DNA of 64,000 nt, from positions 868,001 to 932,000 of the forward strand of contig NZ_CP053661.1 of assembly GCF_013177315.1 (NCBI RefSeq), read 5' to 3'. How positions within the stretch are numbered: position 1 is the first letter of the stretch; every line of letters starts with the position of its first letter. The notes under the pieces were generated by a model that was not told the origin of the DNA, made no database searches, and saw only the letters and a program-made list of their open reading frames with translations. Positions 711-49,050 of the stretch are shown one piece after another. Source of the stretch: Thermoleptolyngbya sichuanensis A183. GTDB taxonomy: Bacteria > Cyanobacteriota > Cyanobacteriia > Elainellales > Elainellaceae. The translations under genes and the position numbers were made by a program.

Positions 711-756
711 AATCGATTAACTAAGTAGATAGACCAGATTAAAAAACAGATCCCGA

Positions 757-800
757 ACCCTGCGCCGCCCGCTGCGCGGGCGGCGCAGGGTCTTTGGGTT
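757..800 (+). terminator. Strong intrinsic terminator
   Basis: A perfect 16-bp GC-rich stem (757-772 pairing with 776-791) has a 3-nt TGC loop and is followed by a T-rich run (ctttgggttttatattt). It ends the transcript of the PPC-domain gene that stops at 710. Confidence 0.9.
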
Positions 801-854
801 TTATATTTATTAATGTCCACCTACTTAGAACCATTAATCCTGATTTAGGCAGGC

Positions 855-22968: not shown

Positions 22969-23060
22969 GGTTTGGGGGTTAGAAGTCAGCATTAAAGGCT
23001 TTGCCTCTGGCATCTGATCCCTCGTTTCTACAGCCTTGATTCCTACAAACCTAAAAAAGA

Positions 23061-23150
23061 CAGGACTTACGCACTTGCGATAGGCTTTCTGGGTTTTGGA
23101 CAATTTCTCGTGGGCTGCGCCCGCGAGAAATCGTCCAACCGCGTAATTCA
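23061..23150. repeat. MITE-like inverted-repeat element, family A copy 2
   Basis: About 90 bp, clearly related to copy 1 at 1088-1180: the same caggacttacgca start, the same tttctgggttttgga centre and the inner inverted repeat gacaatttctcg/cgagaaatcgtcc. The right TIR is more degraded (gcgtaattca). It sits between rplL and the terminator at 23157. Confidence 0.8.
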
Positions 23151-23156
23151 TAAAAG

Positions 23157-23187
23157 AGGTCGTCCCAATTTGCGACGACCTTTTTTG
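23157..23187. terminator. Bidirectional terminator between rplL and the avtA-like gene
   Basis: aggtcgtc (23157-23164) pairs with gacgacct (23174-23181) around a 9-nt loop, with a T-run (tttttt) on the plus side and the complementary aaaaga stretch giving a T-run on the minus side. It can end both the ribosomal-protein operon and the convergent minus-strand transcript. Confidence 0.85.
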
Positions 23188-23229
23188 ATGGCTTGCTTTT
23201 GCTGGTTTGCGTTTTTGCCGATGCGACGG

Positions 23230-24531
23230 CTAACGGGCTGCCAGTTCTGTTTGGCTGATGCTCGATTGAGCATAGACCCGATCGGCGACTTGCGCGAGTC
23301 GGCGCATTGCCTCAGCCAGCTCCGACTCGGAGGCAGTCAGGCTGATCCGGAAGCATTCCTGCGTGTGGGTCCAGTCCTCTTGCAGGCCGGGGAAAAACGG
23401 GCTACCGGGTACGACGATTACTCCCGCCTGCTTCAGCTGCTGATAAAACTCCCAATCGCTCATTGGCAAGTCTTTGAGCCAGAGCCACGCAAAGATCGCC
23501 CCTTCGCCCCGATGCAAGAACCAGGGTAGGTTTGTGGGCATGGCCTCGTCTAGCGTAGCCTCTAGGGCGGCAAATTTCTGCTGATAGTGGGGGCGGATGA
23601 CCTGCTCGGAAATGGCGGCTAAGCGACCAGAGCGAATAGCACGGGAGGCGATCGCCTGTCCATAGCGGGGCGAATGCAGACAGAGATTCGTGAGAAATGC
23701 CTCCAGGTGTTGAATCACACGCTCGTCGCCAATGGCAATGCCCACGCGCTCACCAGGCAATCCTGCTTTTGAGAGGCTGGTGCAATGAACAATATTTGGG
23801 CCAAAAATCGGTGTCATCTCGGTGAAATTTAAACACGGGAACGGCGGCGCATAGGCCGAATCGACAAACACAGGCACATCGTAGGGTTCCGCCATTGCCG
23901 CGATTTTCCGCACCTCATCATCCGTCAGCACGTTGCCCGTGGGGTTGCAGGGCCGAGAAAACAGCACAAAGCCCGTGGTTGCGTTGATTTCAAGCTGGTC
24001 AAAGTTGGGGCGATACTTGAAGCGATGGGCGGCGGCATCGATTTCTAAACGGGGGCGATAGGCCCGCAGCGCTTCGGGAATCAGCGTCACGCCGCCATAG
24101 CCTGTATAGTCCGGGCTGAGGGGCAGCACGATCTGCTTCAGCCGTCCGTCGGTGGTGTAGCCGCCTAGCGCGTTTGCTGCCAAAAAGTAGAGCGACTGGC
24201 TACCGGGGGTGATGAGAATGTTGCGATCGCCCAGGTTCAGCCCATACCGCTGATTGTAGTCTGCGATTACGGCCTCAATGAGCGGCTGATAGCCCTGGCT
24301 AGAGCCATAGCGACACACCACCTCGCCATATTCAGGGCTGTCCAGCAGTTCTATCGTACAGTCGCGCCAAAGCTGCTCCACCTCTGGTAAAATCACCGGA
24401 TTGCCCGCACTCAGGTTGATAAACTCGCGTCCCTGGGCAGTTCGCAGCGTTTCGATAATGTCCTTCATAATCGCCCGCACCCCGGTCAGGTGGGACATCT
24501 GTTCGCCAAACTGAGTGAGAGCAGGACGCAT
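23230..24531 (-). CDS. avtA: Valine-pyruvate transaminase-like class I aminotransferase
   Basis: A 433-residue PLP-dependent aminotransferase that interconverts amino acids and keto acids. The start MRPALTQFGEQMSHLTGVRA (ATG 24531) aligns with the start of AvtA-type enzymes. The frame extends upstream but that part is not family-like. The opening FGEQMSHLTGVRAIMKDIIE and the phrase INLSAGNPVILPEVEQLWRD are AvtA features, and the PLP lysine is in TSLSKAGLPGERVG. The C-terminal Arg for the substrate carboxylate lies in ECFRISLT. Substrate preference (Val/Ala/pyruvate) is inferred from the family. It is the last gene of the minus-strand run starting with the ATP-grasp gene at 29063, after a 285-bp gap. 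Confidence 0.75.
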   Translation of the reverse strand: MRPALTQFGEQMSHLTGVRAIMKDIIETLRTAQGREFINLSAGNPVILPEVEQLWRDCTIELLDSPEYGEVVCRYGSSQGYQPLIEAVIADYNQRYGLNLGDRNILITPGSQSLYFLAANALGGYTTDGRLKQIVLPLSPDYTGYGGVTLIPEALRAYRPRLEIDAAAHRFKYRPNFDQLEINATTGFVLFSRPCNPTGNVLTDDEVRKIAAMAEPYDVPVFVDSAYAPPFPCLNFTEMTPIFGPNIVHCTSLSKAGLPGERVGIAIGDERVIQHLEAFLTNLCLHSPRYGQAIASRAIRSGRLAAISEQVIRPHYQQKFAALEATLDEAMPTNLPWFLHRGEGAIFAWLWLKDLPMSDWEFYQQLKQAGVIVVPGSPFFPGLQEDWTHTQECFRISLTASESELAEAMRRLAQVADRVYAQSSISQTELAAR

Positions 24532-24816
24532 AGGCGGGTAAGGGGTGAGGGGTGAGAGATGGGGAAAGACGGCTCCGAAACGCTGACTCGAACAGGGATC
24601 GACGGGATGTAGGAAGAGGCAAGCGGCACCAATCCTTTGCACCTGAGCCTCGACTCCAGATCGGCCTCCAGATTTATATCCAGATTTAATGTCCAGATTT
24701 ATGTAATGTGCGCGACAAAAGGGCTTCTGTCAATCCGACAGTTGGGGCGATTTTTGGATGGAATTGTTCTGGGCGGCGGGCAAACTTGAGAGGGAGGAGG
24801 GCGATCGCCCTTGTTT

Positions 24817-25527
24817 CTAACCCAAACCGCCCAGCCCAACTTGTTCCACCAAAGCAGAGGCCAGCAGGGCGCTGCCGATGGGCACGGTGAGATTATCGAT
24901 GCCCCATTTTGAGAAAGTTTCGAGAACCGTCGCGGCGATCGCCACCAGGGCCGCCACGCCCCACAGCGCCGCGGTTCCCTGAGAAATTCCCAGCACCAGC
25001 CCACCGACCAAAAAACTCGCCAGCGCCATCGTCAGCGTCCCTTCCCAGCTTTTTTCGATGTCGCCAATTTTGTAGCGGCGTTGCCCCAAGGACTGGCCCA
25101 CCAGCGCCGCCAGCCCGTCGCCCCACGCCATGATCAAAATGCCGAGCGCAGCATAGTGCGGACGCGCCTGCCAGAACAGGGCAATCAGCACGCCGATGCT
25201 GACGGCATAGAAAAAAGTGCCCAGGCTCTTGCGCCCGACGCTGTTGATCCCAGGCAGAATCGGGAACCGATAGGACACCAGCGCCACCAGGCTAAACAAC
25301 ACCGAAAAGCTCAGCCCCACCCAGGGCGGAATCTTGAGCCACCAGGCAATCAGAATCACGTTACCGGTGCCGATGTGGACGATTTTGCGGACGGTTTCCG
25401 GCTCCAATAGCTGAAACCGATTTAGCCCTTCCGCCAGCAGCGTAATTCCCGCCACCCACAGCGCCGCCGCCGCCAGTTGCAGCCACAGCGGCGGAGCAGA
25501 TGCATACCAGGGGAGGGCACTCAGCAA
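24817..25527 (-). CDS. Phytol/polyprenol kinase family protein (VTE5-like)
   Basis: A 236-residue membrane protein with about six to seven hydrophobic helices, of the CTP-dependent dolichol/phytol kinase family. Family signatures are RKIVHIGTGNVILIAWW near residue 46, GDGLAALVGQSLGQRRYKIG with its acidic-basic nucleotide-binding residues, and KSWEGTLTMALASF. In cyanobacteria the homologue (slr1652-type) phosphorylates phytol released from chlorophyll, feeding tocopherol and chlorophyll synthesis. Its neighbours do not obviously relate to that, so co-transcription with the ParA gene (57 bp away) may be incidental. Confidence 0.85.
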   Translation of the reverse strand: MLSALPWYASAPPLWLQLAAAALWVAGITLLAEGLNRFQLLEPETVRKIVHIGTGNVILIAWWLKIPPWVGLSFSVLFSLVALVSYRFPILPGINSVGRKSLGTFFYAVSIGVLIALFWQARPHYAALGILIMAWGDGLAALVGQSLGQRRYKIGDIEKSWEGTLTMALASFLVGGLVLGISQGTAALWGVAALVAIAATVLETFSKWGIDNLTVPIGSALLASALVEQVGLGGLG

Positions 25528-25584
25528 GGGTTATCCTTTGGTGGAATATCTGGTGGAGTATCCATCCGGCGAGCCACGCGGCAA

Positions 25585-26346
25585 CTAGGCCATGACCTGA
25601 TGGGCGATCGCCTCTACCACGTTCGTCAGCGGATTGTTGGGATACTTCATTGTAAAAATGCCCGTGCTAGCCAGCACCATCATGTCGTCCGAATGGGGCA
25701 AAATGCCTGCCACAGGCGCATCGTAGGTTTCCTCAATGCGCTGCTTGAGTTGGTTAAAATCCAGCACTTGCGGAGCCTTGTTCACGACGATTAGCAGCTT
25801 GGGCACTTCCAGCTTGCGGGCCACATCCACCGTCACTGCTGTCCCCTGATAGTCCTGCTGGTCGGGACGCAGAATCAGCACCAGCACATCAGAAATCGTG
25901 ATCGACAAGAGGGTTTCTTCGTTCAGTCCGGGGTGCGTGTCGATAAACAGATAGTCGAGCTTGAGGGTTTCGATCAGTTCCCGAAAGCCCTCATTCAGCA
26001 GCCCCACGTCGTAGCCCTCGCGCAGCACGCGGGCAATTTCTCCTGCCTTGACGCTGGAGGGGACGAGGTAGACTTTGCTGCGATCGCCCCCCTTGCCTTC
26101 CAGCACCGAGGTCACGTCGTAGGCTACATCAGAAATCGAGCGCCGCCCCCAGAGGTAATCATTGAGCGATCGCTCCATGTCGTCTTCTGCAAAGCCAAAC
26201 AGGACATGGATTCCGGGGGACTGAATATCCGTGTCTACAATGCCCACGCGATAGCCCTGCCGCGCAATCATGGTGGCCAGATTTGCGGTCGTGTTGGACT
26301 TTCCGGTGCCGCCTCGATAGGAGTGAACGGAAACCACTTTGGACAT
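25585..26346 (-). CDS. ParA/MinD-like P-loop ATPase
   Basis: A 253-residue deviant-Walker ATPase. It starts MSKVVSVHSYRGGTGKSNTT at ATG 26346, which has GAGG 7 nt upstream; a longer open frame from 26514 adds a non-family N-terminus. Walker A is YRGGTGKSNTT (residues 10-20), the A' motif VDTDIQSPG with Asp40 follows, and Walker B is LFIDTHPGL. The C-terminal stretch IAHQVMA is short, without an obvious amphipathic membrane-targeting helix, unlike MinD. Proteins of this kind position plasmids, proteins or compartments. No ParB-like partner is visible in the window. It is embedded in the kamA/ATP-grasp run. Confidence 0.85.
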   Translation of the reverse strand: MSKVVSVHSYRGGTGKSNTTANLATMIARQGYRVGIVDTDIQSPGIHVLFGFAEDDMERSLNDYLWGRRSISDVAYDVTSVLEGKGGDRSKVYLVPSSVKAGEIARVLREGYDVGLLNEGFRELIETLKLDYLFIDTHPGLNEETLLSITISDVLVLILRPDQQDYQGTAVTVDVARKLEVPKLLIVVNKAPQVLDFNQLKQRIEETYDAPVAGILPHSDDMMVLASTGIFTMKYPNNPLTNVVEAIAHQVMA

Positions 26347-26534
26347 GAAAAACCTCGAAGAAAATGCGTCGGCGGGGCGGGTAGGAAATGGTAGACCCGG
26401 AAATGATAGATCGGAAATGGCGGGTACTGGCAGCCGATCCAGATCAATACAGCTCGATACAGACCGATCGATTCGATGCAGTAAAGAGCGATACAGAAAG
26501 AGTGATACGGGCAATCGCTCAATCCCGGATGCTG

Positions 26535-27629
26535 CTAGTATCCGTCTGATTTGGCAAGGCGGAGGATTTCACCCTGATAATTTTCCAGCCAGTAGCCCTG
26601 CTCGTCACGATGAACCTGGGTTTCCCACAAGGGAATTTTGCCTAGTTTCGTAGTGACGATATATTGGGGCACGGCAAATCCGGTGGTATGACCCATTAAT
26701 CCTCGCATGATTTCTCGCCCTTTTTCCACACTGGTGGCGAAGTGCGACACGCCCGTCACGTTGTCGCAATGATAGAGATAGTAAGGGCGGACGCGGATTT
26801 TGAGCAGTCCATGCAGGAGCGATCGCATGGTCTCTAGGTCATCGTTGATGCCCTTCAGCAGCACGCTCTGGTTTTGCACCGGGATGCCGTGCCGCAGGAG
26901 GCGATCGCACGCTTCAGCCGCTTCCGGCGTGATCTCCTTGGGATGGTTGAAATGCGTATTCAGCCAGATGGGATGATATTTCTCCAGCATGGCGCAAAAC
27001 GCTGGCGTAATCCGCATCGGCAGCAGCACCGGATAGCGACTGCCAATCCGAATCACCTCTACGTGGGGAATCTTCCGCAATCGGGAAATAATCAGCTCCA
27101 GCTTTTCGTCAGAATAGGTCAGCGGATCACCGCCCGTCAGCAGCACGTCGCGGATTTCGGGATGGCTGGCGATATAGTCAAAATCCTGCTCCCAGGAGGC
27201 TGCCTCGCTGGTTTCAAAATATGTGCCCTCCAGGTCGGTCGTGTGAAACTTGCGGGTGCAGTGGCGGCAGTATACAGCGCATACCTCCGTCACCAGCAGC
27301 ACGATGCGATCGGGATATTTGTGAACGACGCGGTTCGTTTTGCGATAAACCGTGTCGCCGACCGGGTCGGGTTCCGCGCCAGGAAAGAACTGGAACTCTT
27401 GCAGCGCGGGCACAGACTGGAGGCGAATCGGGCAGTTGGGATCGTCGCGATCCATCAGCGAGGCATAGTAGGGCGTGATGCTCCAGCGATATTTCCCAGC
27501 CGAAGCCCGGATTGCCTCTGCCTCGTTGGGTGTGACGTGGACCCACTGCTGCAAGTCTTCGAGGGTCTGGATGCGGTGCTGAAGCTGCGATCGCCAGTCT
27601 GACCAAACCAAATCCTGTGTTTTCGGCAT
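26535..27629 (-). CDS. KamA family radical-SAM aminomutase with altered active site
   Basis: A 364-residue radical S-adenosylmethionine enzyme of the lysine 2,3-aminomutase family, which moves an alpha-amino group to the beta carbon using PLP and a [4Fe-4S] cluster. The cluster cysteines are Cys117, Cys121 and Cys124 (CAVYCRHC), and the PLP lysine is probably Lys331 in KLGKIPL. From memory of the clostridial enzyme, the substrate aspartate equivalent to D293 is kept (Asp289, YHCDN), but the D330 equivalent is Thr326. The GGGG loop before the PLP lysine is two residues shorter. The usual C-terminal extension of about 50 residues is also missing. A different or modified substrate is therefore likely, so I withhold the symbol. 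No acetyltransferase partner (AblB/YodP) is adjacent; an ATP-grasp ligase lies 111 bp upstream instead. Confidence 0.85.
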   Translation of the reverse strand: MPKTQDLVWSDWRSQLQHRIQTLEDLQQWVHVTPNEAEAIRASAGKYRWSITPYYASLMDRDDPNCPIRLQSVPALQEFQFFPGAEPDPVGDTVYRKTNRVVHKYPDRIVLLVTEVCAVYCRHCTRKFHTTDLEGTYFETSEAASWEQDFDYIASHPEIRDVLLTGGDPLTYSDEKLELIISRLRKIPHVEVIRIGSRYPVLLPMRITPAFCAMLEKYHPIWLNTHFNHPKEITPEAAEACDRLLRHGIPVQNQSVLLKGINDDLETMRSLLHGLLKIRVRPYYLYHCDNVTGVSHFATSVEKGREIMRGLMGHTTGFAVPQYIVTTKLGKIPLWETQVHRDEQGYWLENYQGEILRLAKSDGY

Positions 27630-27740
27630 TGATGAATTCCCCCGATTTCAGCCAAAATTTACGACAAAGGGCTTCAGTTACGCAGATTTGCGCGGTTAGT
27701 CCCTGAGAATCGAAATTTCTACACTTTGCTGCCCTGTCGC

Positions 27741-29063
27741 TTAGAGAGATAGTCGAGTTGTGAGCGCGTGTTGGAGAGCCAGCGCATCAGCCTGATTGGC
27801 CGCCAGAATGGCGTAGCCGATTTGATGCCGGACTAGCCCCGCGCTGTTTGTGATCACCACGCCCCAGCCCGAAGCTTGCGGAAACAGCAGATCGGCGATC
27901 GCCCTTTCCAGGTCAGCCCAGCAGTTCACCGCAGGACATGGCGCACTGGTGCGGCTGAGCAGGGTCGCTGTTTGCGCCCGGCGCTCTCCCAGCAAAAACC
28001 GTGCCAATTCATACACATGCGTTCCTCCAGTGCGGCGGGCATTTACCTCCAACAGGTATAGGGTTCCCGCATCATCCACAATTCCATCGAGATCGAAGTG
28101 CCCAATGTAGCCCATTGCCTGGAGTTTTTTGCCGACTTCTAAGGCGGCGGCACTCAGGTCGGCATACCAGGATGCATCGGCCCAGGACGGGCTGACCAGT
28201 TCCCCTGCATAAGCGCCCGATGGCAGCACCTGCTGGGCGCAAATGGCCGCCAGATAGGGCGGCTCAGCTCGATTCGCAGGTACGACGACTTCTGCTGAAG
28301 GAGAAAGCGCCTGAGCGCTAGGAATCTGCGCCTCCACAATCAGCAGATCATTGGCGTAGTAAGGATTTTGCCGGAGTGTTGATTGCATTTCGTCCAGGCT
28401 GGGGGCGGCTTCTGGGCGAAACACCGTATGCCCAATGCCCAAAAAGCCCGTATTGGCCTTGACGATGCAGCCCTGACCGCGCCGAAGAAACGTGTGGGCG
28501 ATCACCCCTGCTTCTTCCACACTCCGCGCCACATAGCCCTCCGGCAGCCAATTCCCCATCCACTGCCCCACCAGCATCCGAAAGCCCAGCTTCGTCTGCA
28601 CATACTCCCGCAGCCACAGCCGATCGGGGGCAGGACTTTCCGGCAGGTACACCGTCAGCCCATAGGTCTGTCGCAGCAGATCCGCCAGCTTGTGAACCGC
28701 AGGCGTAGTGGCGTAGGGAATGAGTTGCAGTGCGCCCGCATCGTCTGCAAAATCTACGATCCGCTGGAGCAGCGCAGACTCTCGCAAAATATCGGCACAG
28801 ATGGAATCTGAGGAACGCTCCGGGCAGGCGTGCTGAAGCTGCGAATAGCCCAGCCGATCTCGCAAATAGTCCACATGAGCAACGGGCGCTTCGGTGATCA
28901 CCAGCTTGCGATCGCCCAGCCACAAGAGCGATCGCTCATTGGCCACCCGAAATCCGCGAATCAGCGCCTCCCGCCTTGCCAAATCTGGCTCTCGATAAAG
29001 CAGATAGCCGTTTGCCTCTAGCGTATTGCCCAGAATGACTAAGGGAGTGGTAGGTGCGAGCAT
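27741..29063 (-). CDS. ATP-grasp ligase with pre-ATP-grasp N-domain
   Basis: A 440-residue protein of the carboxylate-amine ligase superfamily, which joins an acyl phosphate to an amine. The N-terminal half (to about residue 160) looks like the pre-ATP-grasp domain of peptide ligases such as PGM1. The ATP-grasp domain shows CIVKANTGFLGIGHTVF (nucleotide-binding lysine and glycine loop), then YIGHFDLDGIVDDAGTLYLL and EVNARRTGGTHVYELARFLL with the metal-binding Glu and Asn. The Arg-Arg-Thr-Gly-Gly-Thr-His run is diagnostic of that subgroup. Substrates are unknown. Its position directly upstream of the aminomutase suggests an amino acid or beta-amino acid as amine donor, which is inference. Confidence 0.8.
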   Translation of the reverse strand: MLAPTTPLVILGNTLEANGYLLYREPDLARREALIRGFRVANERSLLWLGDRKLVITEAPVAHVDYLRDRLGYSQLQHACPERSSDSICADILRESALLQRIVDFADDAGALQLIPYATTPAVHKLADLLRQTYGLTVYLPESPAPDRLWLREYVQTKLGFRMLVGQWMGNWLPEGYVARSVEEAGVIAHTFLRRGQGCIVKANTGFLGIGHTVFRPEAAPSLDEMQSTLRQNPYYANDLLIVEAQIPSAQALSPSAEVVVPANRAEPPYLAAICAQQVLPSGAYAGELVSPSWADASWYADLSAAALEVGKKLQAMGYIGHFDLDGIVDDAGTLYLLEVNARRTGGTHVYELARFLLGERRAQTATLLSRTSAPCPAVNCWADLERAIADLLFPQASGWGVVITNSAGLVRHQIGYAILAANQADALALQHALTTRLSL

Positions 29064-29130
29064 GATTGGGATTGAGCAGGTGATTGAGCAGGTGAATGGT
29101 GACGCAGCCTGGCAAATGCCAAGACCATTT

Positions 29131-29237
29131 GGCTTGAGCAGATCAGCTCGAGTAAATCAGCTTGAGCAGATCAGCTTGAGCAGATCAGCTTGAGTCAATT
29201 GGCTGAGCAGATCAGCCTGCGTCAATTGGCTGAGCAG
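29131..29237. repeat. Degenerate 14-bp tandem repeat between operons
   Basis: The word cttgagcagatcag and close variants recur five to six times in 107 bp. Three nearly perfect 14-bp steps lie at 29147-29190, followed by two longer units containing gtcaattggctgagcag. It fills the gap between the HAMP sensor gene and the ATP-grasp gene, where a promoter for the latter is expected. No ORF. Confidence 0.75.
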
Positions 29238-29281
29238 GTGAATGGCTACGCCGCGTCGCCAGGCAACAACTCACCCCAAAT

Positions 29282-30346
29282 TTATTCTTCCATTGGCCGA
29301 TTTCGCAGCCTCCGCGCCTTAACGACCAAATCCTGAAAGAAATCAGTTTCCACAATTTCCCGCACCTGCTTTTGGCGTTTTACCTGGTCGATTTCGATTT
29401 TGAGGCTGGCGACCTGCTGTTTGAGGGATTCTTCCCGTTGGCGCACTTTGTCTACCATGAGTTGGAACACGCGAGCAAGGGTAGAAATTTCGTCCTGCAC
29501 CTCGCTTTTGCTCAGTGCAGTGAGATCCTGGCTATAGTCGCCTTCCCCGATGCGCTCGGCGGCGGCGGATAGTTCCTTCAGCGGGCGAGACAAAATGCCC
29601 GACAGCAGGTAGACCAGGCTAAACAGCGTGCCGTAGGTTGCCAAAAACGACAGCAAAAGGCGATCGCGCAATTGTTGCTGTACTTCAAATACGTGATCGG
29701 CTTCGATGTCGGCTCCCAGCACAGCGACGATTTTTCCATTCTTGTCGCGGATGGGGGTGTAGGCGGAAATCCAGCTTCCCCACTGGTCAGTGTAGAGGTC
29801 GCGGTTGACCGTTTCGCCCTCCTGAAAGGCTCGCAGCGAGTAGGGTGAGGGCTTGTCGGGTTCCAAAAACGGCAGCGCCCGTTCTGGCAAAAATCGCCAG
29901 AGGGAATCCACCAGGTATATCGCCTCCAGTTCATCGCCTGTCGTGGCTGGTTTGCCGATGCGGCGGTTTTCGCTCGGCTTGCCCAAGATGAAGCTGTAGG
30001 CGTAGACATTGGGCGAAATGCGGTGCGCGGTTTCAAACCATTCCAACTGGTGCAGATAGCGCGGATCGTCTGAAAAGCCCTCTGCGTTGCGTTCGCCCGT
30101 TTTATACAGTGCCAGCAGTTCCTCTGCGTCGATGTCGTGGGCAGTGCCAATGGCGGTACTTTCCAGATCTTGCTTGAGGCGGGCGATCGCCTTTTCGGTG
30201 GAAAAGTTGTAGAACCACCAATACACCACCGCAAACACCGTGCTGAACACCAGCGTAAAGCCCGTGAGCAGTTTCCAGCGGAGACTCCAAAAGCGCTGTC
30301 TCTCCGCCAGTTTGGCAGCAGATGCAGAGGAGGTGATCTGGCTCAT
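29282..30346 (-). CDS. HAMP-domain membrane sensor without output domain
   Basis: About 354 residues from ATG 30346 (MSQITSSASA; a GTG at 30361 is in frame). A transmembrane helix (LLTGFTLVFSTVFAVVYWWF) precedes a periplasmic Cache-like domain of about 190 residues (YLHQLEWFETAHRISPNVYA, then DQWGSWISAYTPIRDKNGK). A second helix, a HAMP domain (LSRPLKELSAAAERIGEGDY) and a coiled coil ending RQKQVREIVETDFFQDLVVK follow. No kinase, cyclase or methyl-accepting domain is present. The sensor domain is clearly paralogous to that of the histidine kinase at 43390-45324. It starts immediately after the transporter gene stop (30363), so the two form an operon and the transporter or its cargo may be the signal. 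Confidence 0.85.
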   Translation of the reverse strand: MSQITSSASAAKLAERQRFWSLRWKLLTGFTLVFSTVFAVVYWWFYNFSTEKAIARLKQDLESTAIGTAHDIDAEELLALYKTGERNAEGFSDDPRYLHQLEWFETAHRISPNVYAYSFILGKPSENRRIGKPATTGDELEAIYLVDSLWRFLPERALPFLEPDKPSPYSLRAFQEGETVNRDLYTDQWGSWISAYTPIRDKNGKIVAVLGADIEADHVFEVQQQLRDRLLLSFLATYGTLFSLVYLLSGILSRPLKELSAAAERIGEGDYSQDLTALSKSEVQDEISTLARVFQLMVDKVRQREESLKQQVASLKIEIDQVKRQKQVREIVETDFFQDLVVKARRLRNRPMEE

Positions 30347-30362
30347 GGCAACCTTTTGCACG

Positions 30363-31709
30363 CTAAAACTCCAGTTTGTCGAGGACGCTCTTGCCGCGCT
30401 GACGACGCTTTAGCCGCCAGTTGAGCAGGCTTTTGTCATACACGGCTCGCATCTGCAACACGGCCCACAGCGACAGCAGCGCCATTAGCCCAGCAACGCC
30501 CAGATACAGCAGGTGAGGAGGCAGGCGATCGCCCCATCCCAAGCGCCCCACCAGCAAGATGGCTCCCGTCATCAGCGCTCCCAGAATACTGCCCAAGGAA
30601 ACCAAGTAGCTGTCTAGCAACAGGCTCACCCGCCCCCGCCGCTCCTCTGGAACCAGTCCGGCAAAGGCTTTGCGAGCAGTTTCGTCGATGCTGTACTGAG
30701 GGAGTTTTTGCAGCGACACTCCGGCGATCGCCCCGCCCAGTCCCGGCATTGCCAGCATCGCCGAAGCGCCCAGCAGGCTGCTGACGGGCTGAACCAGGAA
30801 CAGATCCTTAAGCTGGAGATGGGTAATCAGCCGCTGGGTCAGGAAGGTCTGGATGCCCAGATAGGCGACCGTGCGCCCCAGCGTGAACAGGCTGAGGAAG
30901 GTTTGGTAGGTGCCCGCATTGGCGATCGCCCCGCCCGACACCGCATAAAATCGGTATTCCACAATCGTTTCGCAGACGATCATCGCCAGAATGGAAACCA
31001 TCAAATAGCGGAACGCAGGCACCTGGCTAACAAACTCCCAGCCCTCAGACAGGGCCTCACGCAGAGTTTCCGACTTTTGCTGAATCTGCCGCAATTTGGT
31101 GTCCTTCAGCCCCATTTCCAGCCCTACATACATCAGGAAATAGAGCAGGATATTCAGCATCAGCAGTTCCTCTGGCTTGATCTGCAAATGCAAAAATAGC
31201 CCCGGCGACAGCGCCGTAATCCCAATTCCTACAAGGCTGCCTGCAAATCCCAGGCTGCCCAATAGGGGAAATAGCCGCTTGCTCTGTGCCACGTCAAACA
31301 CATCGCTCGACAGCACCCAAAACGCCATCGGGAAGAAAATCAACTGCTGATCCGACAGCAGATAAAACAGCCCGTAGTTCAGCCAGCCGGGGGTTCTCAG
31401 CAAAAACATCAGCCGCAACACCATGAACGACAGCGCCAAAATCGCGCTGATGCCGCGCACCATCGTCAGTCGATCAAACCGATCGACCCAGAGAGACTGT
31501 AATCCCGTCATGGCGATGGTAATCAGGCTGCTGAGAACCAGCACCACCAAAAATTGCGACGGCCCCACGTCTACCAGAAAGTTGCTCAGGGAGGCGATTT
31601 CCGACACCTTTTGGGCGAGGGCATTGGCAAACAGCGCAAAGCCCAGCGTCAGCACCAGCCTGGTTTCGTCGGCTCGCACGTTCAGAAATTGATTAACATT
31701 CAAGGGCAT
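30363..31709 (-). CDS. Npt1/MFS-type nucleotide transporter-like membrane protein
   Basis: About 448 residues starting MPLNVNQFLNVRADETRLVL at ATG 31709. The open frame reaches 31934 but that stretch is repeat-derived. It has 10-12 hydrophobic helices. The N-terminal phrases ANALAQKVSEIASLSNFLVD and SDQQLIFFPMAFWVLSSDVF, and the cytoplasmic middle with DETARKAFAGLVPEERRGRV, are typical of the cyanobacterial Npt1/Npt2-like (ATP/ADP carrier-related) family. Transport of nucleotides is not proven for these proteins. It is upstream of, and almost overlapping, the HAMP sensor gene. The region above its start contains three exact 15-bp repeats. Confidence 0.75.
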   Translation of the reverse strand: MPLNVNQFLNVRADETRLVLTLGFALFANALAQKVSEIASLSNFLVDVGPSQFLVVLVLSSLITIAMTGLQSLWVDRFDRLTMVRGISAILALSFMVLRLMFLLRTPGWLNYGLFYLLSDQQLIFFPMAFWVLSSDVFDVAQSKRLFPLLGSLGFAGSLVGIGITALSPGLFLHLQIKPEELLMLNILLYFLMYVGLEMGLKDTKLRQIQQKSETLREALSEGWEFVSQVPAFRYLMVSILAMIVCETIVEYRFYAVSGGAIANAGTYQTFLSLFTLGRTVAYLGIQTFLTQRLITHLQLKDLFLVQPVSSLLGASAMLAMPGLGGAIAGVSLQKLPQYSIDETARKAFAGLVPEERRGRVSLLLDSYLVSLGSILGALMTGAILLVGRLGWGDRLPPHLLYLGVAGLMALLSLWAVLQMRAVYDKSLLNWRLKRRQRGKSVLDKLEF

Positions 31710-32078
31710 GGCAAGGGCATGGGTGATTCCGCAGTTCTGGGAGGATTCCGGCGAAAGCCAGCACAGGGTCGCGATCGCGGAGATGCAGGGCGAACCTTGC
31801 CCAAAGCGCCAGGCATATTCGCTGACGGCATATTCGCTGACGGCATATTCGCTGACAACGCTCTTGGCGGCCCAACTTGGGTTTGATCCAGAGTTCCTTG
31901 CAACCTGCACGGGCGATCGCCACTGGAGAGGCACCCCTACATCACGACGCTGTGTCTAATGAAGTTCGCAGTCTGTCCTATTTCGTAGGTTGCCCGGAAT
32001 CGGAGCGAGTTCACCAGCCTGACAACAAGCTTTCGTGAAGGAACGCGCCTCCAGAATTGGGGATTTGAAGCCCGGTGT
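31710..32078. other. Intergenic region with 15-bp triple repeat
   Basis: A 369-bp gap between the transporter gene and the HAD gene, both on the minus strand. The only structure seen is the triple repeat at 31812-31856 and several HIP1 sites. No tRNA or ORF is supported. Confidence 0.5.
31812..31856. repeat. Three exact 15-bp tandem repeats
   Basis: The unit ggcatattcgctgac occurs three times without a mismatch (31812, 31827, 31842). Read in the minus-strand open frame it would encode SEYAV repeats, but this lies upstream of the likely start codon at 31709. It may change transcription spacing. Confidence 0.9.
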
Positions 32079-32753
32079 TTAGGAATGGGTAGGTTGCAGA
32101 CTCCTGGCTGATTCCAGCAGGCTCCACAGACGCGGATCGGTGAAGTCCTGAACCACCAGCAGCGTACCCAACTGGGTTAGTTCCTCGGCCGAATGGGTTG
32201 CTGCGATGCCGATTGTGGGAATGCCCGCACCCACCGCCGAGCGAATCCCAGAGGGCGAATCCTCAAAGGCGATCGCCTCGGTTGCCAACACGCCCAGACA
32301 GTCCAGCGCCGTTTGGTAGGGCAGCGGATCGGGCTTGCCCTTGGGCAACTCATCACCCAGCACCACTACCGAAAACAGCGGCTCTAGGGCCAGGGTTTTC
32401 ATCATGAACGCTGCATTTTCCACGGGCGCATTCGTCACCACAGCCCGCTGCAACTCGTGATGCTGCATCCAGTGCAATACGTCCCAGAGTCCCGGCGTTG
32501 GTTCCATGCCCGTGGCCTGTTCGCGGAATCGGGCCTCTTTTTCGGCACTCAGCTTTGCACCCGCCTCTGCCGATAAGTGCGGCAGCAAATCGCGGACAAT
32601 CTGCTCGTTCAGCCGCCCGCTGAAGTGGGCATCATAAAACTCGCGGTCGATTTCCATGCCCAACTCTGCCATCACCGCCTTCCAGGTTTGGTAGTGCAGC
32701 GGGTCTGTGTTGGCAACGGTTCCATCCAGGTCAAACAATAGCGCTTTCAACAT
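32079..32753 (-). CDS. HAD-superfamily phosphatase/phosphoglucomutase-like hydrolase
   Basis: A 224-residue HAD hydrolase (subfamily IA), beginning MLKALLFDLDGTVANTD with the nucleophile Asp9 and acid/base Asp11. Motif II is AVVTNAPVEN, motif III Lys is in KGKPDPLPYQTA, and motif IV is AIAFEDSPSGIRSAVGAG. The helical cap between motifs I and II includes FSGRLNEQIVRDLLPHL, as in beta-phosphoglucomutase-like enzymes that act on small sugar phosphates. The substrate is not predictable. It is transcribed alone, away from the TetR gene across a low-complexity spacer. Confidence 0.85.
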   Translation of the reverse strand: MLKALLFDLDGTVANTDPLHYQTWKAVMAELGMEIDREFYDAHFSGRLNEQIVRDLLPHLSAEAGAKLSAEKEARFREQATGMEPTPGLWDVLHWMQHHELQRAVVTNAPVENAAFMMKTLALEPLFSVVVLGDELPKGKPDPLPYQTALDCLGVLATEAIAFEDSPSGIRSAVGAGIPTIGIAATHSAEELTQLGTLLVVQDFTDPRLWSLLESARSLQPTHS

Positions 32754-43165: not shown

Positions 43166-43389
43166 CCCCCCGGCCCCTGCCTTTTTTGGGCTGCTCAGAG
43201 AGAGGAAGCCATTGCCACAAGCTAGCGGCTCAGGACATCCCAACGAATGGATGCTCTGAAGTGAGAGTTTTTCGCGGGTTATTCTGTTAAACGATTGAAA
43301 AATCGGGCATCTTAAGTAGTGAGATTCATCGCGAGATTCAGCACATCCCAGCGCTGGCCTTCCTAACCTGGATCGAGAGTGTGCCAGTT

Positions 43390-45324
43390 ATGTCCTTAGA
43401 CTTTTTGCCGCGCAGTGGCCGCTTTAGCTGCTCTACTTCACAGCCTCGCTCTCCATTTATCAGCCTCCAGTTCAAGCTCATGTTGGGCTTTGCGCTGGTC
43501 AGCGGGCTGGTTTTTGTCGGGTTATACGGCTGGCTTTATAGCAAAGCTTTAAATCGGGTGAGGGAGGGGCTAAGGCAGGACATGGTGAATACGCTGGACG
43601 GGGCGATCGCCGGTGTTGATGCGACCGAGTTTTCCCAGCTTTCCCAGTTGCCTGCGCCGCAGGGCGAGCCAGTGCCCGCCTCAAACCCGCTCTATCAGCG
43701 CCATCAAGAATGGCTGATCCGAATTCACAACGTAGAGCCACGGGCCAATCCTTATACCTTGGTGAAGGGAGCCAAACCCTACGAAGCACTCTGGATTGGG
43801 GATAGCTTGCGAGTCTTGCAGCCGGAGAACGCCACAAGCTTTCGGGAAGCCTACCTCGCCACACCGGACGAAACTCGCCTCTATCAGGGATTTTCGGAGG
43901 TGACGCTGACGCTCTCGCCCTACACCGACTCTTGGGGAAACTGGATTTCTGCCTATGGCCCGATTAAAAATGCTGAAGGGCAGGTGATTGGGCTGCTGGG
44001 GATCGATTTTCAGGCTGACGAGATCTACAGTGTTGAGCGAGACATTCGCAAAAGCTTGGCGATCGCCTTTGGCAGCACCTACCTGCTGCTGCTGGGTCTG
44101 GTGGCGCTGCTGGCTCGCTCCTTTACGCGACCGATTATCGATCTGACCGATGCCACCGAGCAAATGAGCCAAGGCGAGTACGATCGGGCGCTGACACAGT
44201 TTCATCGTCGCTATGTGCGAGATGAGATTAGCCAACTGGCAAGCAGCTTTGAGCGGATGGTAGAGCAGGTGCAGCAGCGCGAGGCAGACCTGGCCAGCGC
44301 CAACAGCAACCTGGAAGAACAAGTCCGGCAACGCACCCAGGAGCTAGAAGAGAACAACGCCCACCTTGAGCAAACCCTGCGAGATCTCAAGGCCACTCAG
44401 TCGCAACTGATTCAAACGGAAAAGATGTCGAGTTTGGGGCAGCTTGTGGCAGGTCTAGCCCATGAGATTAACAATCCCCTAAGCTTCATTCAGTCCAATT
44501 TGCTCCATGCCCGCGAGTACATGCAGTGCTTATTGGAGATGCTGAACCTTTATCAGACCCATCTCCAAAAGGTGCCAGCGATCTGCGAAAAGGCAGAGGA
44601 ACTAGGGCTGGAATTCATTCAGGATGATCTGCCCAAGCTGCTGGGGTCGATGCAGGTTGGCACGCAGCGGATTAGTGAAATCGTGCGATCGCTCCGTGTG
44701 TTTGCCCGGTTGGATGAGTCTGAGGTCAAGTCCGTTGATCTGCATGAAGGGCTGGACAGTACGCTGCTGTTGCTCAATAGCCGTCTCCGGGGCACTCCTA
44801 GTCGAGCAGGTATCCGCATTGTTCGGGAATACGGCGATCTGCCGCTTGTCGAGTGCTACGCCGGACAGATTAACCAGGTGTTTATGAACCTTTTGAGCAA
44901 CGCGGTCGATGCTCTGGAGGCGATGCGAGAACAGGTGGATGGTTTACGCAGCGCCGCTGGGCAGGCTCATTCCCCGGCATACTGCATGGACTGGGCCAAG
45001 GATTTATTGCCAGAGGAACAAGACGAGATTCCCACCATCTGGATTAGAACCCGTCTGGTCGAAGGGAATCGCGTCTCGGTGTGCATCGCAGACAATGGAA
45101 TTGGCATTTCGACGGACGTGCAGCAGCGGATCTTTAATCCCTTTTTCACCACTAAACCTGTGGGACGCGGAACCGGGCTGGGGCTATCAATTTGCCATCA
45201 AATCATTACCGAGCGCCACGGCGGTACGCTGAAATGCACCTCTTGCCCCGCTGAGGGGTCAGAATTTTGCTTTGAGATTCCGCTGAAGCTGCCTGCCAAC
45301 CAGCCCCAACAGACCCAGGCTTAG
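43390..45324 (+). CDS. Sensor histidine kinase with Cache-like domain and HAMP
   Basis: About 644 residues. It has an N-terminal helix (FKLMLGFALVSGLVFVGLYG), a periplasmic Cache-like domain (NPLYQRHQEWLIRIHNVEPR, then TDSWGNWISAYGPIKNAEGQ), a second helix, HAMP (FTRPIIDLTDATEQMSQGEY), and a coiled coil with repeated Glu/Gln. The kinase core has the H-box LAHEINNPLSFIQ and ATP-binding boxes NQVFMNLLSNAVDAL (N), IADNGIGIS (G1) and GRGTGLGLSICHQI (G2). No response regulator is adjacent. The sensor domain matches that of the HAMP protein at 29282-30346 in several stretches, so both probably sense the same class of ligand. I used ATG 43390; a GTG at 43381 is three codons upstream. Confidence 0.92.
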   Translation: MSLDFLPRSGRFSCSTSQPRSPFISLQFKLMLGFALVSGLVFVGLYGWLYSKALNRVREGLRQDMVNTLDGAIAGVDATEFSQLSQLPAPQGEPVPASNPLYQRHQEWLIRIHNVEPRANPYTLVKGAKPYEALWIGDSLRVLQPENATSFREAYLATPDETRLYQGFSEVTLTLSPYTDSWGNWISAYGPIKNAEGQVIGLLGIDFQADEIYSVERDIRKSLAIAFGSTYLLLLGLVALLARSFTRPIIDLTDATEQMSQGEYDRALTQFHRRYVRDEISQLASSFERMVEQVQQREADLASANSNLEEQVRQRTQELEENNAHLEQTLRDLKATQSQLIQTEKMSSLGQLVAGLAHEINNPLSFIQSNLLHAREYMQCLLEMLNLYQTHLQKVPAICEKAEELGLEFIQDDLPKLLGSMQVGTQRISEIVRSLRVFARLDESEVKSVDLHEGLDSTLLLLNSRLRGTPSRAGIRIVREYGDLPLVECYAGQINQVFMNLLSNAVDALEAMREQVDGLRSAAGQAHSPAYCMDWAKDLLPEEQDEIPTIWIRTRLVEGNRVSVCIADNGIGISTDVQQRIFNPFFTTKPVGRGTGLGLSICHQIITERHGGTLKCTSCPAEGSEFCFEIPLKLPANQPQQTQA

Positions 45325-47811: not shown

Positions 47812-49050
47812 ATGAAAGTGCAAGATTTAAAGGGAAAAACCGTTGCGTTTGCCGGGTCGGGCGGGCTAGATAGCTGCACCATTACGCGCTGGCTGACAAA
47901 CCAGGGCGTAAACGTGGTGTGCTTTACGGCCGACCTGGGGCAGCCGGATGAAGAAGACATGGATGCGGTGCGCCAGCGGATGCTGAAGGCGGGCGCGGTG
48001 GACTTTGTGCTGCTGCCTGTGCGAGAGGCGATCGCCGAAGACGGCCTCAAGGTGATCCAGTCGCAGGCCTGCTACGAAGGGCGCTACTGGAACACCACGG
48101 GAATCGCCCGCTGTTCCCTGACCAAGGCAATGATTCTGGAAATGAAGCAGCGCGGGCTGACGATTTTTAGCCACGGCGCAACGGGGCGCGGCAACGACCA
48201 GGTGCGGTTTCAGCTAATTACCAATATGCTGGCTCCAGAGTTTGAGGTGTATGCACCCTGGCGCGACGAGAGCTTTCTGGCGCGGTTCCCCGGCCGCAGC
48301 GAGATGATTGATTTCTGTCAGGAAAACGGGCTGCCCGTGACGGCTACCAAAGACAAGCCCTATTCCACCGATGCCAACCTGCTGGGGTTGACGCATGAAT
48401 CGGGAATGCTGGAGGCGCTGACCACCCCGGCCCAGTTTGTGAAGCCGATTATGGGCTGCTATCCGCAGGATGCGCCCGACACGCCAGAAGCTTTTACCGT
48501 GCGGTTTGAAAAGGGTCGTCCGGTGAGCGTGAATGGGGAATCGGTGAATCTGGTGGATGCGTTTTTGAAGACGAATGCGATCGCCGGAAAGCACGGCATC
48601 GGCATCGGCACGCACCTGGTCGAAAACCGCTTTGTGGGCATCAAGTCGCGCGGCGTATACGAAAGCCCCGGCGTAGAAACCCTGGGCACTTGCTATGCTT
48701 ATCTGCTGCAACTGATTCTGGATCGGCGGGCGCGGGAGTTTTATGACCAGCTTTCGCTCCTGGTGGCCAAGCAAATCTATCAGGGCTACTGGTTTGACCG
48801 GGCAACGCAGATGATGCTGGCGGCGATCGCCAACACGGCCGAACTCGCCACCGGAACCATCAGCGTGTCCCTTTACAAAGGCAATATCTCCTTCGTGGCG
48901 GCCGACGACGTGCCCCACATCCTCTATTCCGAAGAAAACGCCTCAATGGAGGGCGTGGGCGACTATAACCACGGCGACTCGGAGGGGCTGCTGCGGGTCT
49001 TTGGCGTGAGCGCCCGCGTGTTGGCCACCAGCGGTCAGGTCGGTCTTTGA
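47812..49050 (+). CDS. Argininosuccinate synthase-related protein (paralogue)
   Basis: A 412-residue member of the adenylating amidoligase (PP-loop) family closest to argininosuccinate synthase. ASS motifs are present but altered: the PP-loop reads VAFAGSGGLDSCTI rather than FSGGLDTS, followed by FTADLGQPDEEDMDAVRQRM, SHGATGRGNDQVRFQL and KPYSTDANLLGLTHESG. The layout follows the long, E. coli-type ArgG. Cyanobacteria normally encode a canonical ArgG elsewhere with the AYSGGVDTS loop, so this is probably a second, functionally divergent copy and a different substrate is possible. It has its own upstream gap (about 270 bp) and a 12-bp hairpin downstream, so is likely monocistronic. Confidence 0.8.
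   Translation: MKVQDLKGKTVAFAGSGGLDSCTITRWLTNQGVNVVCFTADLGQPDEEDMDAVRQRMLKAGAVDFVLLPVREAIAEDGLKVIQSQACYEGRYWNTTGIARCSLTKAMILEMKQRGLTIFSHGATGRGNDQVRFQLITNMLAPEFEVYAPWRDESFLARFPGRSEMIDFCQENGLPVTATKDKPYSTDANLLGLTHESGMLEALTTPAQFVKPIMGCYPQDAPDTPEAFTVRFEKGRPVSVNGESVNLVDAFLKTNAIAGKHGIGIGTHLVENRFVGIKSRGVYESPGVETLGTCYAYLLQLILDRRAREFYDQLSLLVAKQIYQGYWFDRATQMMLAAIANTAELATGTISVSLYKGNISFVAADDVPHILYSEENASMEGVGDYNHGDSEGLLRVFGVSARVLATSGQVGL

Follow-up and report, generated by a model that had tools for sequence, protein, structure and literature searches.

The DNA analysed here, called the window below, is a stretch of 64,000 nucleotides from the cyanobacterium Thermoleptolyngbya sichuanensis A183 (contig NZ_CP053661.1, positions 868,001 to 932,000), whose genome consists of one contig of 5,525,100 bases. 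An earlier note, made from the sequence alone, had pointed to a minus-strand run of five genes for an ATP-grasp ligase, a KamA-like aminomutase, a ParA ATPase, a VTE5 kinase and an AvtA transaminase, with 111 bp between the ligase and aminomutase genes. The listing of open reading frames (ORFs) contains all five at the positions it gave, so that the run is borne out, and the 111-bp gap is correct. The same-strand run extends further upstream of the ATP-grasp gene, with a gene for a Cache-HAMP protein and then one for an ATP/ADP-carrier-like protein. The genes are the following (all on the minus strand):

30363-31709, minus: ATP/ADP-carrier-like (NTT/TLC) membrane protein, conserved cassette member; start inferred from homologs
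29282-30361, minus: Cache-HAMP membrane sensor (Pfam HAMP, AlphaFold2 model, Foldseek)
27741-29063, minus: predicted ATP-grasp ligase, accessory cassette member (profile and Foldseek)
26535-27629, minus: KamA of the arginine 2,3-aminomutase type, a radical S-adenosylmethionine (SAM)/pyridoxal phosphate (PLP) enzyme (TIGR04468)
25585-26514 (ORF; likely 25585-26346), minus: ParA/MinD-superfamily ATPase (Pfam ParA/AAA_31/CbiA)
24817-25527, minus: VTE5-like membrane protein, outside the conserved cassette; name without family support
23230-24642 (ORF; likely 23230-24531), minus: AvtA valine-pyruvate transaminase, outside the conserved cassette (NF006967)

The natural unit at this locus is KamA together with the sensor, the carrier-like protein and ParA, and not the five genes of the earlier note; the ATP-grasp ligase is an accessory member of this cassette. 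The carrier-like and sensor genes are separated by 1 bp and the other genes by 57-285 bp. The ParA start is placed at 26346 (MSKVVSVHSYRGG) because homologs align from about there and mostly not to the preceding 56 residues, and the AvtA start at 24531 is a guess. An Rfam scan of 23000-32500 gave no RNA element at the gathering score. Between the sensor and ATP-grasp genes, 14-bp tandem-like repeats are recognized at 29132-29231.

The window KamA passes the NCBIfam model for arginine 2,3-aminomutase (TIGR04468; 662.5 bits against a cut-off of 600) and falls below those for the lysine 2,3-aminomutase (LAM) AblA (TIGR03820; 401.7 against 525.4), glutamate 2,3-aminomutase (TIGR04368; 404.1 against 650) and EpmB of elongation factor P (EF-P) lysylation (TIGR03821; 244.6 against 369.3). 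It also matches the solved LAM 2a5h (E 1e-107), and in the alignment to this structure the CxxxCxxC motif, K331, R126 and LAM Asp293 (D289 here) are intact, and LAM Asp330 is replaced by a threonine (T326). We take K331 to be the PLP lysine, R126 the carboxylate-binding arginine, and LAM Asp330 one of the two ligands of the lysine side chain. Of the 60 arginine-type loci (L058-L116 and L120, L numbers being our labels for loci), 58 have threonine at the latter position (L114 has Asp and L115 Ala), and among the 32 Chloroflexota rows that are 46-50% identical, 31 have Asp (L200 has Pro). The label "arginine-type" rests on identity and tree position for these 60 loci, NCBIfam models having been scored for the window, L061, L066 and L114; L061 (671 bits) and L066 (617) pass TIGR04468. 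The substrate of the window KamA is thus very probably arginine, and its product beta-arginine, as judged from family scores and the residue at position 330. The earlier note had assigned the gene to the KamA family, which stands, and had framed it by beta-lysine synthesis or EF-P modification, which we reject on the family cut-offs and the Asp330-to-Thr change. That the enzyme acts as a lysine 2,3-aminomutase or in EF-P lysylation, as KamA and EpmB usually do, could be argued from the common superfamily and the match to 2a5h, but with the TIGR03820 and TIGR03821 cut-offs missed and the presumed lysine-side-chain binder changed to Thr it is scarcely plausible.

The contigs of 84,980 species, each represented by a single genome, were scanned for KamA by short exact peptide patterns, so that the scan is not exhaustive. 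It gave 63 loci: eight in cyanobacteria, six in Chloroflexota, 46 other arginine-type loci (56-70% identity) and three distant ones (L117-L119; 33-36% identity in KamA) that enter neither the tree nor the arginine-type counts; L066 and L069 recur as L195 and L196 and were counted once. Claims on neighbours rest on tblastn with the window proteins, ORF calls in high-GC Streptomyces loci (wrong frames) being unused. At 12 of the 14 loci from cyanobacteria and Chloroflexota, KamA has at least one of three partners (sensor, carrier-like protein, ParA) no more than 1.1 kb away. By tblastn this holds for none of the 46 other arginine-type loci, several of which are shortened by contig ends; in five of these (L080, L084, L093, L107 and L112) the contig stops less than 1.1 kb from KamA. 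Taken singly, the sensor is found within 600 bp in eight of the 14, the carrier-like protein within 1.5 kb in eight, and ParA (62-93% identical to that of the window) within 1.2 kb in seven. The two exceptions are Tolypothrix, with a non-ribosomal peptide synthetase (NRPS), and MO_188.B28, with the ligase only.

The order in Elainella is carrier-sensor-KamA-ParA, and that of the window is the same with the ligase inserted before KamA. Three Chloroflexota show carrier-KamA-sensor-ParA and a fourth KamA-sensor-carrier; in a fifth (genome G425), one contig ends with ParA, ParA, carrier and the start of a Ddl-like gene, and another opens with the end of a Ddl-like gene, KamA and the sensor. Gene order varies between the two phyla, and the gene set is kept. 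The KamA tree unites the rows of cyanobacteria and Chloroflexota, that of Tolypothrix among them, in a single group of 15, supported at 99/98 (the tree label "cassette" is carried by 14 rows, including the ligase-only L063 and excluding L062). We read this as one ancestral cassette passed, by transfer or inheritance, between Cyanobacteriota and Chloroflexota, in either direction. Among 386 sampled genomes of the phylum, only that of the window exceeds the TIGR04468 cut-off, and among 36 genomes of its own family a KamA of 78-100% identity is recognized in six, its own included.

Some of these loci recall secondary metabolism, and KamA and the ligase could make a conventional product of that kind (a peptide antibiotic, or something siderophore-like), captured beside an unrelated sensor, carrier-like protein and ParA. 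The arginine-type KamA of Tolypothrix, which lies inside the cassette group of the tree, is accompanied by an NRPS gene, and that of Amycolatopsis (L081) by genes for a B12 radical SAM protein, a cupin and a Ddl-like ligase. However, the set of partners stays with KamA in two phyla although their order has changed, and is seen at none of the 46 other arginine-type loci, and no NRPS gene was seen beside the window cassette, where short precursor-peptide ORFs were not searched for. We regard this explanation as rather doubtful.

The window ligase scores 26.0 bits with Pfam PreAtp-grasp, just under the gathering score of 27.5. A profile of four ATP-grasp rows (A1) matches, among solved ligases, 8ynd (E 2.3e-14) and PGM1 3wvq (E 3.5e-10), and the best Foldseek matches of the predicted structure are PGM1/8ynd/BesA proteins too (E 4e-15). 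The residues K158, K202, E244, E258, D324, D326, E339, N341 and R343 are invariant across four homologs. With the BesA model NF042917 it reaches 27.7 bits against 750, far under the cut-off. By profile and fold, then, the protein appears to be a distant relative of the PGM1/8ynd/BesA ligases, and the pre-ATP-grasp/PGM1-like class that had been proposed for it is supported, though below the cut-off in Pfam PreAtp-grasp. Being of the PGM1 kind, it is not of the Ddl type (PF07478) that occurs in KamA and Ddl amidoligase operons. With moderate confidence, its substrate may be taken to be beta-arginine.

PGM1-like ATP-grasp proteins are recognized in four of the 36 family genomes (that of the window, G001, G404 and G424, ten more giving only 19-31 bits), and above 40 bits in one of the 386 sampled phylum genomes, namely that of the window. 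A fifth, outside the family survey, occurs in MO_188.B28. In all five genomes that carry it, the gene abuts KamA or the sensor: in MO_188.B28 it runs with KamA and an EamA transporter, with an arginase-family gene upstream on the opposite strand, and in G404 the order is carrier, sensor, ATP-grasp (47% identity), then the contig end. Two ligase kinds, PGM1-like and Ddl-like, were looked for near KamA. KamA has an ATP-grasp gene on its own strand, no more than 1 kb away, at four of the 14 loci (PGM1-like in L061 and L063; Ddl-like in L066 and L067, two Chloroflexota cassettes in which it is directly upstream of KamA) and at one of the 46 other arginine-type loci, Rhodopila (L114), with KamA, a Ddl-like ligase, a SET protein and a LysE translocator. 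Ddl-like matches also lie 1.9-3.3 kb from KamA in L072 (weak), L074 (other strand) and L081. The Ddl-like protein of L067, used as a query on the Elainella and Spirulina genomes, gave weak matches away from the cassette.

Similar pairs are seen with KamAs of the lysine type. In the cyanobacterial phylum, a Ddl-like ATP-grasp gene lies within 1.5 kb at six of nine loci, some with one intervening gene (the sixth is in G350); these nine (L017-L025) are the best-scoring further KamA matches and not all of them, and in the 1.5-kb flanks of all 29 loci L017-L045 a Ddl-like match is present in six (L018-L021, L025 and L035). In Chloroflexota the figure is four of 28 loci, the 28 being those that scored best among 158 genomes with a match; L225-L231, picked for known Ddl-like matches, enter no adjacency count. 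Some of these runs also contain a SET gene, a GNAT gene or another Ddl, as in the order KamA, Ddl, Ddl, GNAT-like of two Chloroflexota (L254:6308-10086 and L255:8216-11961; the second Ddl and GNAT were Pfam-tested in L254 only). In two genomes of one cyanobacterial family (G145 and G350), a 348-aa protein lies between the lysine-type KamA and the Ddl-like ligase (L250:9948-10994 and L252:6744-7790); the L250 copy has no Pfam or NCBIfam match, and the protein may be an amidinotransferase.

Since both PGM1-like and Ddl-like partners are seen, KamA has come to be paired with amide ligases from two or more ATP-grasp subfamilies, and this recurrence is the main support for the idea, raised in the earlier note, that a beta-amino acid is made and then coupled by ATP-driven amide formation. 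Of that idea the KamA-ligase pairing holds, with beta-arginine as the most likely amino acid, but the ligase is an accessory and AvtA is no partner. A comparison of neighbourhoods had been proposed as a check, and here the pair does recur beyond this genome, but the full five-gene order is not conserved. The same data bear on an incidental neighbourhood, that is, separate housekeeping genes that happen to lie on one strand: the VTE5-like and AvtA genes lack conservation at this place, all gaps but the 1-bp one measure 57-285 bp, and operon signals are not recognisable. Against it stand the contrast of 12 of 14 and 0 of 46 loci with a partner by KamA and the five of five genomes in which the PGM1-like gene abuts KamA or the sensor, and such an arrangement by chance is very unlikely.

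The VTE5-like and AvtA genes were considered as pathway steps and rejected for want of conservation beside KamA. Neither Pfam nor NCBIfam gave a family for the "VTE5 kinase" at E 0.001 (whether these libraries hold a VTE5 model was not checked), its only match being one at E 0.78 to another Pfam family; the name given to 24817-25527 rests on motifs and found no family support. The gene is found at one of the 63 KamA loci, in a metagenome-assembled genome of the same genus (81% identity), and AvtA at none by tblastn, some contigs ending early in both counts. AvtA does pass the valine-pyruvate transaminase model NF006967 (702 against 402 bits), so that the identity once proposed is confirmed, but not its part in the pathway.

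ParA scores below every cut-off shown for the curated ParA/MinD models (the best being TIGR01969, 83 against 201.75 bits). The deviant Walker A motif of ParA/MinD proteins has a lysine at its first position as its signature. In the window protein the motif reads RGGTGKS, with Arg replacing this lysine, and RGGTGKS is also found in L055, L056 and L057. In L064 (6307-7413) and L054 (8458-9261), the carrier-like gene has upstream of it a gene for another, more divergent ParA; in Elainella the Walker A of this second ParA reads RAGTGQS, and ATP hydrolysis by it is therefore doubtful. ParA as the sole partner of KamA was rejected because ParA of 79-84% identity occurs without KamA in G004, G009, G417 and G418. 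The suggestion that ParA places the product or the enzyme complex fared unevenly: its conservation with KamA is real, but since the sensor/carrier module is conserved about as well as ParA, signalling looks likelier than placement.

The Cache-HAMP protein has a HAMP domain by Pfam (42 bits), and its AlphaFold2 model (predicted local distance difference test, pLDDT, 78.5) shows a long helix, an extracellular Cache-like domain at about residues 60-225, HAMP, a coiled coil and a conserved C-terminal tail, with no output domain recognised. Of the 50 Foldseek matches listed, the majority belong to sensor domains from sensor kinases and chemoreceptors, amino-acid receptors included. The last ~55 residues (window 29282-29461; DFFxDLxxKAR) recur without a Cache domain near ParA paralogs in L160-L163, loci chosen since both matches lay close, so that the recurrence is not a count; the tail is possibly a ParA-docking element. 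Elsewhere in the window, at 43381-45324, a histidine-kinase-like protein has a sensor part 33-35% identical to the cassette protein. The carrier-like protein reaches 17.6 bits with Pfam TLC (cut-off 21), no Pfam family was found for its Chloroflexota homolog in L069, and a nine-row profile matches the solved ADP,ATP carrier 9j3n at E 2.5e-6; by this profile it would be distant kin of the ATP/ADP carriers (NTT/TLC). The link of the cassette enzymes to signalling is suggested with moderate to weak confidence by the genes they are kept with. In its strongest form, the cassette would serve signalling between cells or self-sensing: KamA and the ligase would make a beta-arginyl amide (a beta-lysyl one where KamA is lysine-type) as a secreted signal, which the membrane protein exports and the Cache-HAMP protein senses, driving ParA; this we consider unlikely.

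In relatives, genes of arginine and amino-acid metabolism are found near sensor or ParA loci. In G416-G418, members of one genus (Pfam-tested in G417), the sensor module lies beside Lrp/AsnC, a translocator of the LysE superfamily, an M23 peptidase and ornithine carbamoyltransferase, and in G404 it adjoins LysE, M23 and ArgJ genes. Homoserine/threonine exporters are the closer kin of the LysE-type protein, which also scores below the cut-off, so that calling it an "arginine exporter" would go too far. In LEGE 07170 a binding protein of the basic-amino-acid type (a sub-threshold TIGR01096 match) is encoded upstream of the ligase. The Elainella cassette directly follows STAS, isoamylase/GlgX-like, RsbW-like and SpoIIE-phosphatase genes. 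In the window itself, argininosuccinate synthase (TIGR00032) is encoded at 47812-49050 on the plus strand, ~18 kb from the cassette and with no evident link to it.

Such surroundings (ornithine carbamoyltransferase, ArgJ, Lrp/AsnC, LysE, the basic-amino-acid-type binding protein and the arginase-family gene), together with the many cassettes that show no ligase, would suit a different role, in which KamA supplies beta-arginine, or a derivative, for use as a compatible solute or a nitrogen-rich store, with the module monitoring osmotic or amino-acid status and the ATP-grasp protein being an occasional tailoring enzyme. N-epsilon-acetyl-beta-lysine, a known osmolyte that lysine 2,3-aminomutase and an acetyltransferase produce between them (compare a reference title in PMC2412884), would be the precedent. 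No acetyltransferase, however, was recognised among the window ORFs tested or in the annotated part of the cassette neighbours, and two kinds of ATP-grasp protein occur in its place. We consider a solute or reserve a rather unlikely explanation.

Gene order, protein families, the intact catalytic motifs of KamA and the ligase, and the keeping of KamA with a sensor, a carrier-like protein or ParA across two phyla are firm at the level of sequence. On these grounds we tentatively read the locus, with a probability of about 45%, as a biosynthesis-plus-sensing cassette that would lead from arginine through beta-arginine to an ATP-driven amide and is wired to a sensor module. KamA would turn L-arginine into beta-arginine by shifting its amino group from the alpha to the beta carbon. 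The PGM1-like ligase would then activate a carboxylate as an acyl phosphate and couple beta-arginine to a second amine or amino acid, yielding a beta-arginyl amide or dipeptide of small size. A small extracellular ligand, plausibly the ligase product or a related basic amino acid, would be read by the Cache-HAMP protein, whose conserved tail would relay the signal to the ParA-type ATPase, and the carrier-like protein would transport the product or a nucleotide. In ligase-free cassettes, beta-arginine itself might be the product, or the ligase might be encoded elsewhere.

Several observations weigh against a cassette of synthesis and sensing. Sensor modules without KamA occur in G404 and G416-G418, and, as noted above, the KamA-type ParA too has homologs apart from KamA. 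In G424, which is LEGE 07170, ATP-grasp, KamA and ParA lie together, with the sensor and carrier on another contig. The G404 assembly, rated 99% complete, has no KamA, its contig stopping at the ligase. In G001, of the same genus as the window, carrier, sensor and ATP-grasp are on one contig and KamA, ParA and the VTE5-like gene on another; the same short repeat stands right after the ligase and right before KamA, at the contig ends, so that an insertion or assembly break between the two is likely and their adjacency only plausible. At eight of the 14 loci no PGM1- or Ddl-like ATP-grasp is found near KamA, L058 and L060 ending too close to tell. Confidence in the structure model of the ligase is modest (pLDDT 62.6; Foldseek TM ~0.5 with a root-mean-square deviation of ~11 Å). 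Rhodopila KamA (L114), although its pairing with a ligase is among the clearest, scores 596 against 600 with TIGR04468 and has Asp at position 330, and the "lysine-type" KamAs scored (L019, L197 and L250) fit the lysine model best and still miss its cut-off. With window proteins as tblastn queries, diverged homologs in distant phyla could be missed. In favour of the cassette, in the 36 family genomes the sensor (at least 60% identity) and KamA each occur in six and together in five (hypergeometric p 9e-5), and the ATP-grasp protein occurs in four and together with KamA in three (p 0.010), but these p values ignore shared ancestry. A promoter and terminator scan compared with shuffled sequences gave four promoter-like sites (4.2 expected) and 11 terminator-like ones (9.1 expected), numbers so close to the shuffles that the scan makes no statement on operon structure. 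Apart from these points, the short repeat mentioned for G001 has inverted parts, resembles a miniature inverted-repeat transposable element and is shared with the window (window 722-827, L052:5104-5209 and L053:1-100).

The arginine 2,3-aminomutase, the PGM1-type ligase and the operon with a Ddl-type ligase are each already known. Beta-arginine is known mainly from antibiotics such as blasticidin S. The arginine 2,3-aminomutase reaction of blasticidin S biosynthesis goes back to Prabhakaran et al. 1988, as cited in the excerpt of PMC5572114. The window KamA passes the model of that enzyme (TIGR04468) and has the same radical SAM/PLP architecture, and the Asp330-to-Thr change is common to it and the actinobacterial arginine-type loci, the blasticidin cluster not being singled out among the 46. 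It differs from that type in being 56-70% identical to the 46 loci outside the two phyla and in sitting with a sensor, a carrier-like protein and ParA. PGM1, the pheganomycin peptide ligase, couples a guanidino acid to a peptide according to the excerpt of PMC8939145; the window ligase resembles it (3wvq), the peptide ligase 8ynd/8ynq and BesA (8yi6) in profile and fold and keeps the ATP-grasp residues, but with 17-20% identity on structural alignments, and no precursor peptide is known at the window locus (with the limit on short ORFs given above).

A close precedent for the coupling idea is an operon of lichen Nostoc with a D-Ala-D-Ala ligase, in a paper among whose abbreviations LAM and SET appear (PMC5987646); as far as the excerpt goes, it combines an ATP-grasp amide ligase with what seems to be a KamA-family aminomutase, as does the window. 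The earlier statement that no such pathway was known as described is, on this excerpt, too strong for the general idea. KamA-SET-Ddl and KamA-Ddl runs like that of the Nostoc excerpt are also present in L247-L252, where no match to the sensor, carrier-like protein or ParA was found beside KamA. This situation is different from that of the window, whose ligase is not Ddl-like (PF07478) and whose KamA is arginine-type, which the KamA of the Nostoc type, so far as the excerpt allows comparison, is not. Partner-switching clusters of the IcfG/Hmp type (STAS, RsbW, SpoIIE phosphatase) have their like in the genes preceding the Elainella KamA cassette, but such genes are not present beside that of the window. 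We presume the Elainella genes to be linked to IcfG (compare PMC12329169). In the open-access literature searched, no report of an arginine-type KamA with a sensor/ParA cassette was found, and no beta-amino-acid signal class turned up.

In short, the cassette may make and sense a small molecule. If this is true, cyanobacteria and Chloroflexota would make beta-arginine in a conserved context with a receptor, and the locus would offer a concrete route to a new metabolite, possibly a ligand for orphan Cache-HAMP sensors. The repeated pairing of KamA with two ATP-grasp subfamilies suggests a general beta-amino-acid amide chemistry, which the names "lysine 2,3-aminomutase" and "D-Ala-D-Ala ligase" may hide.

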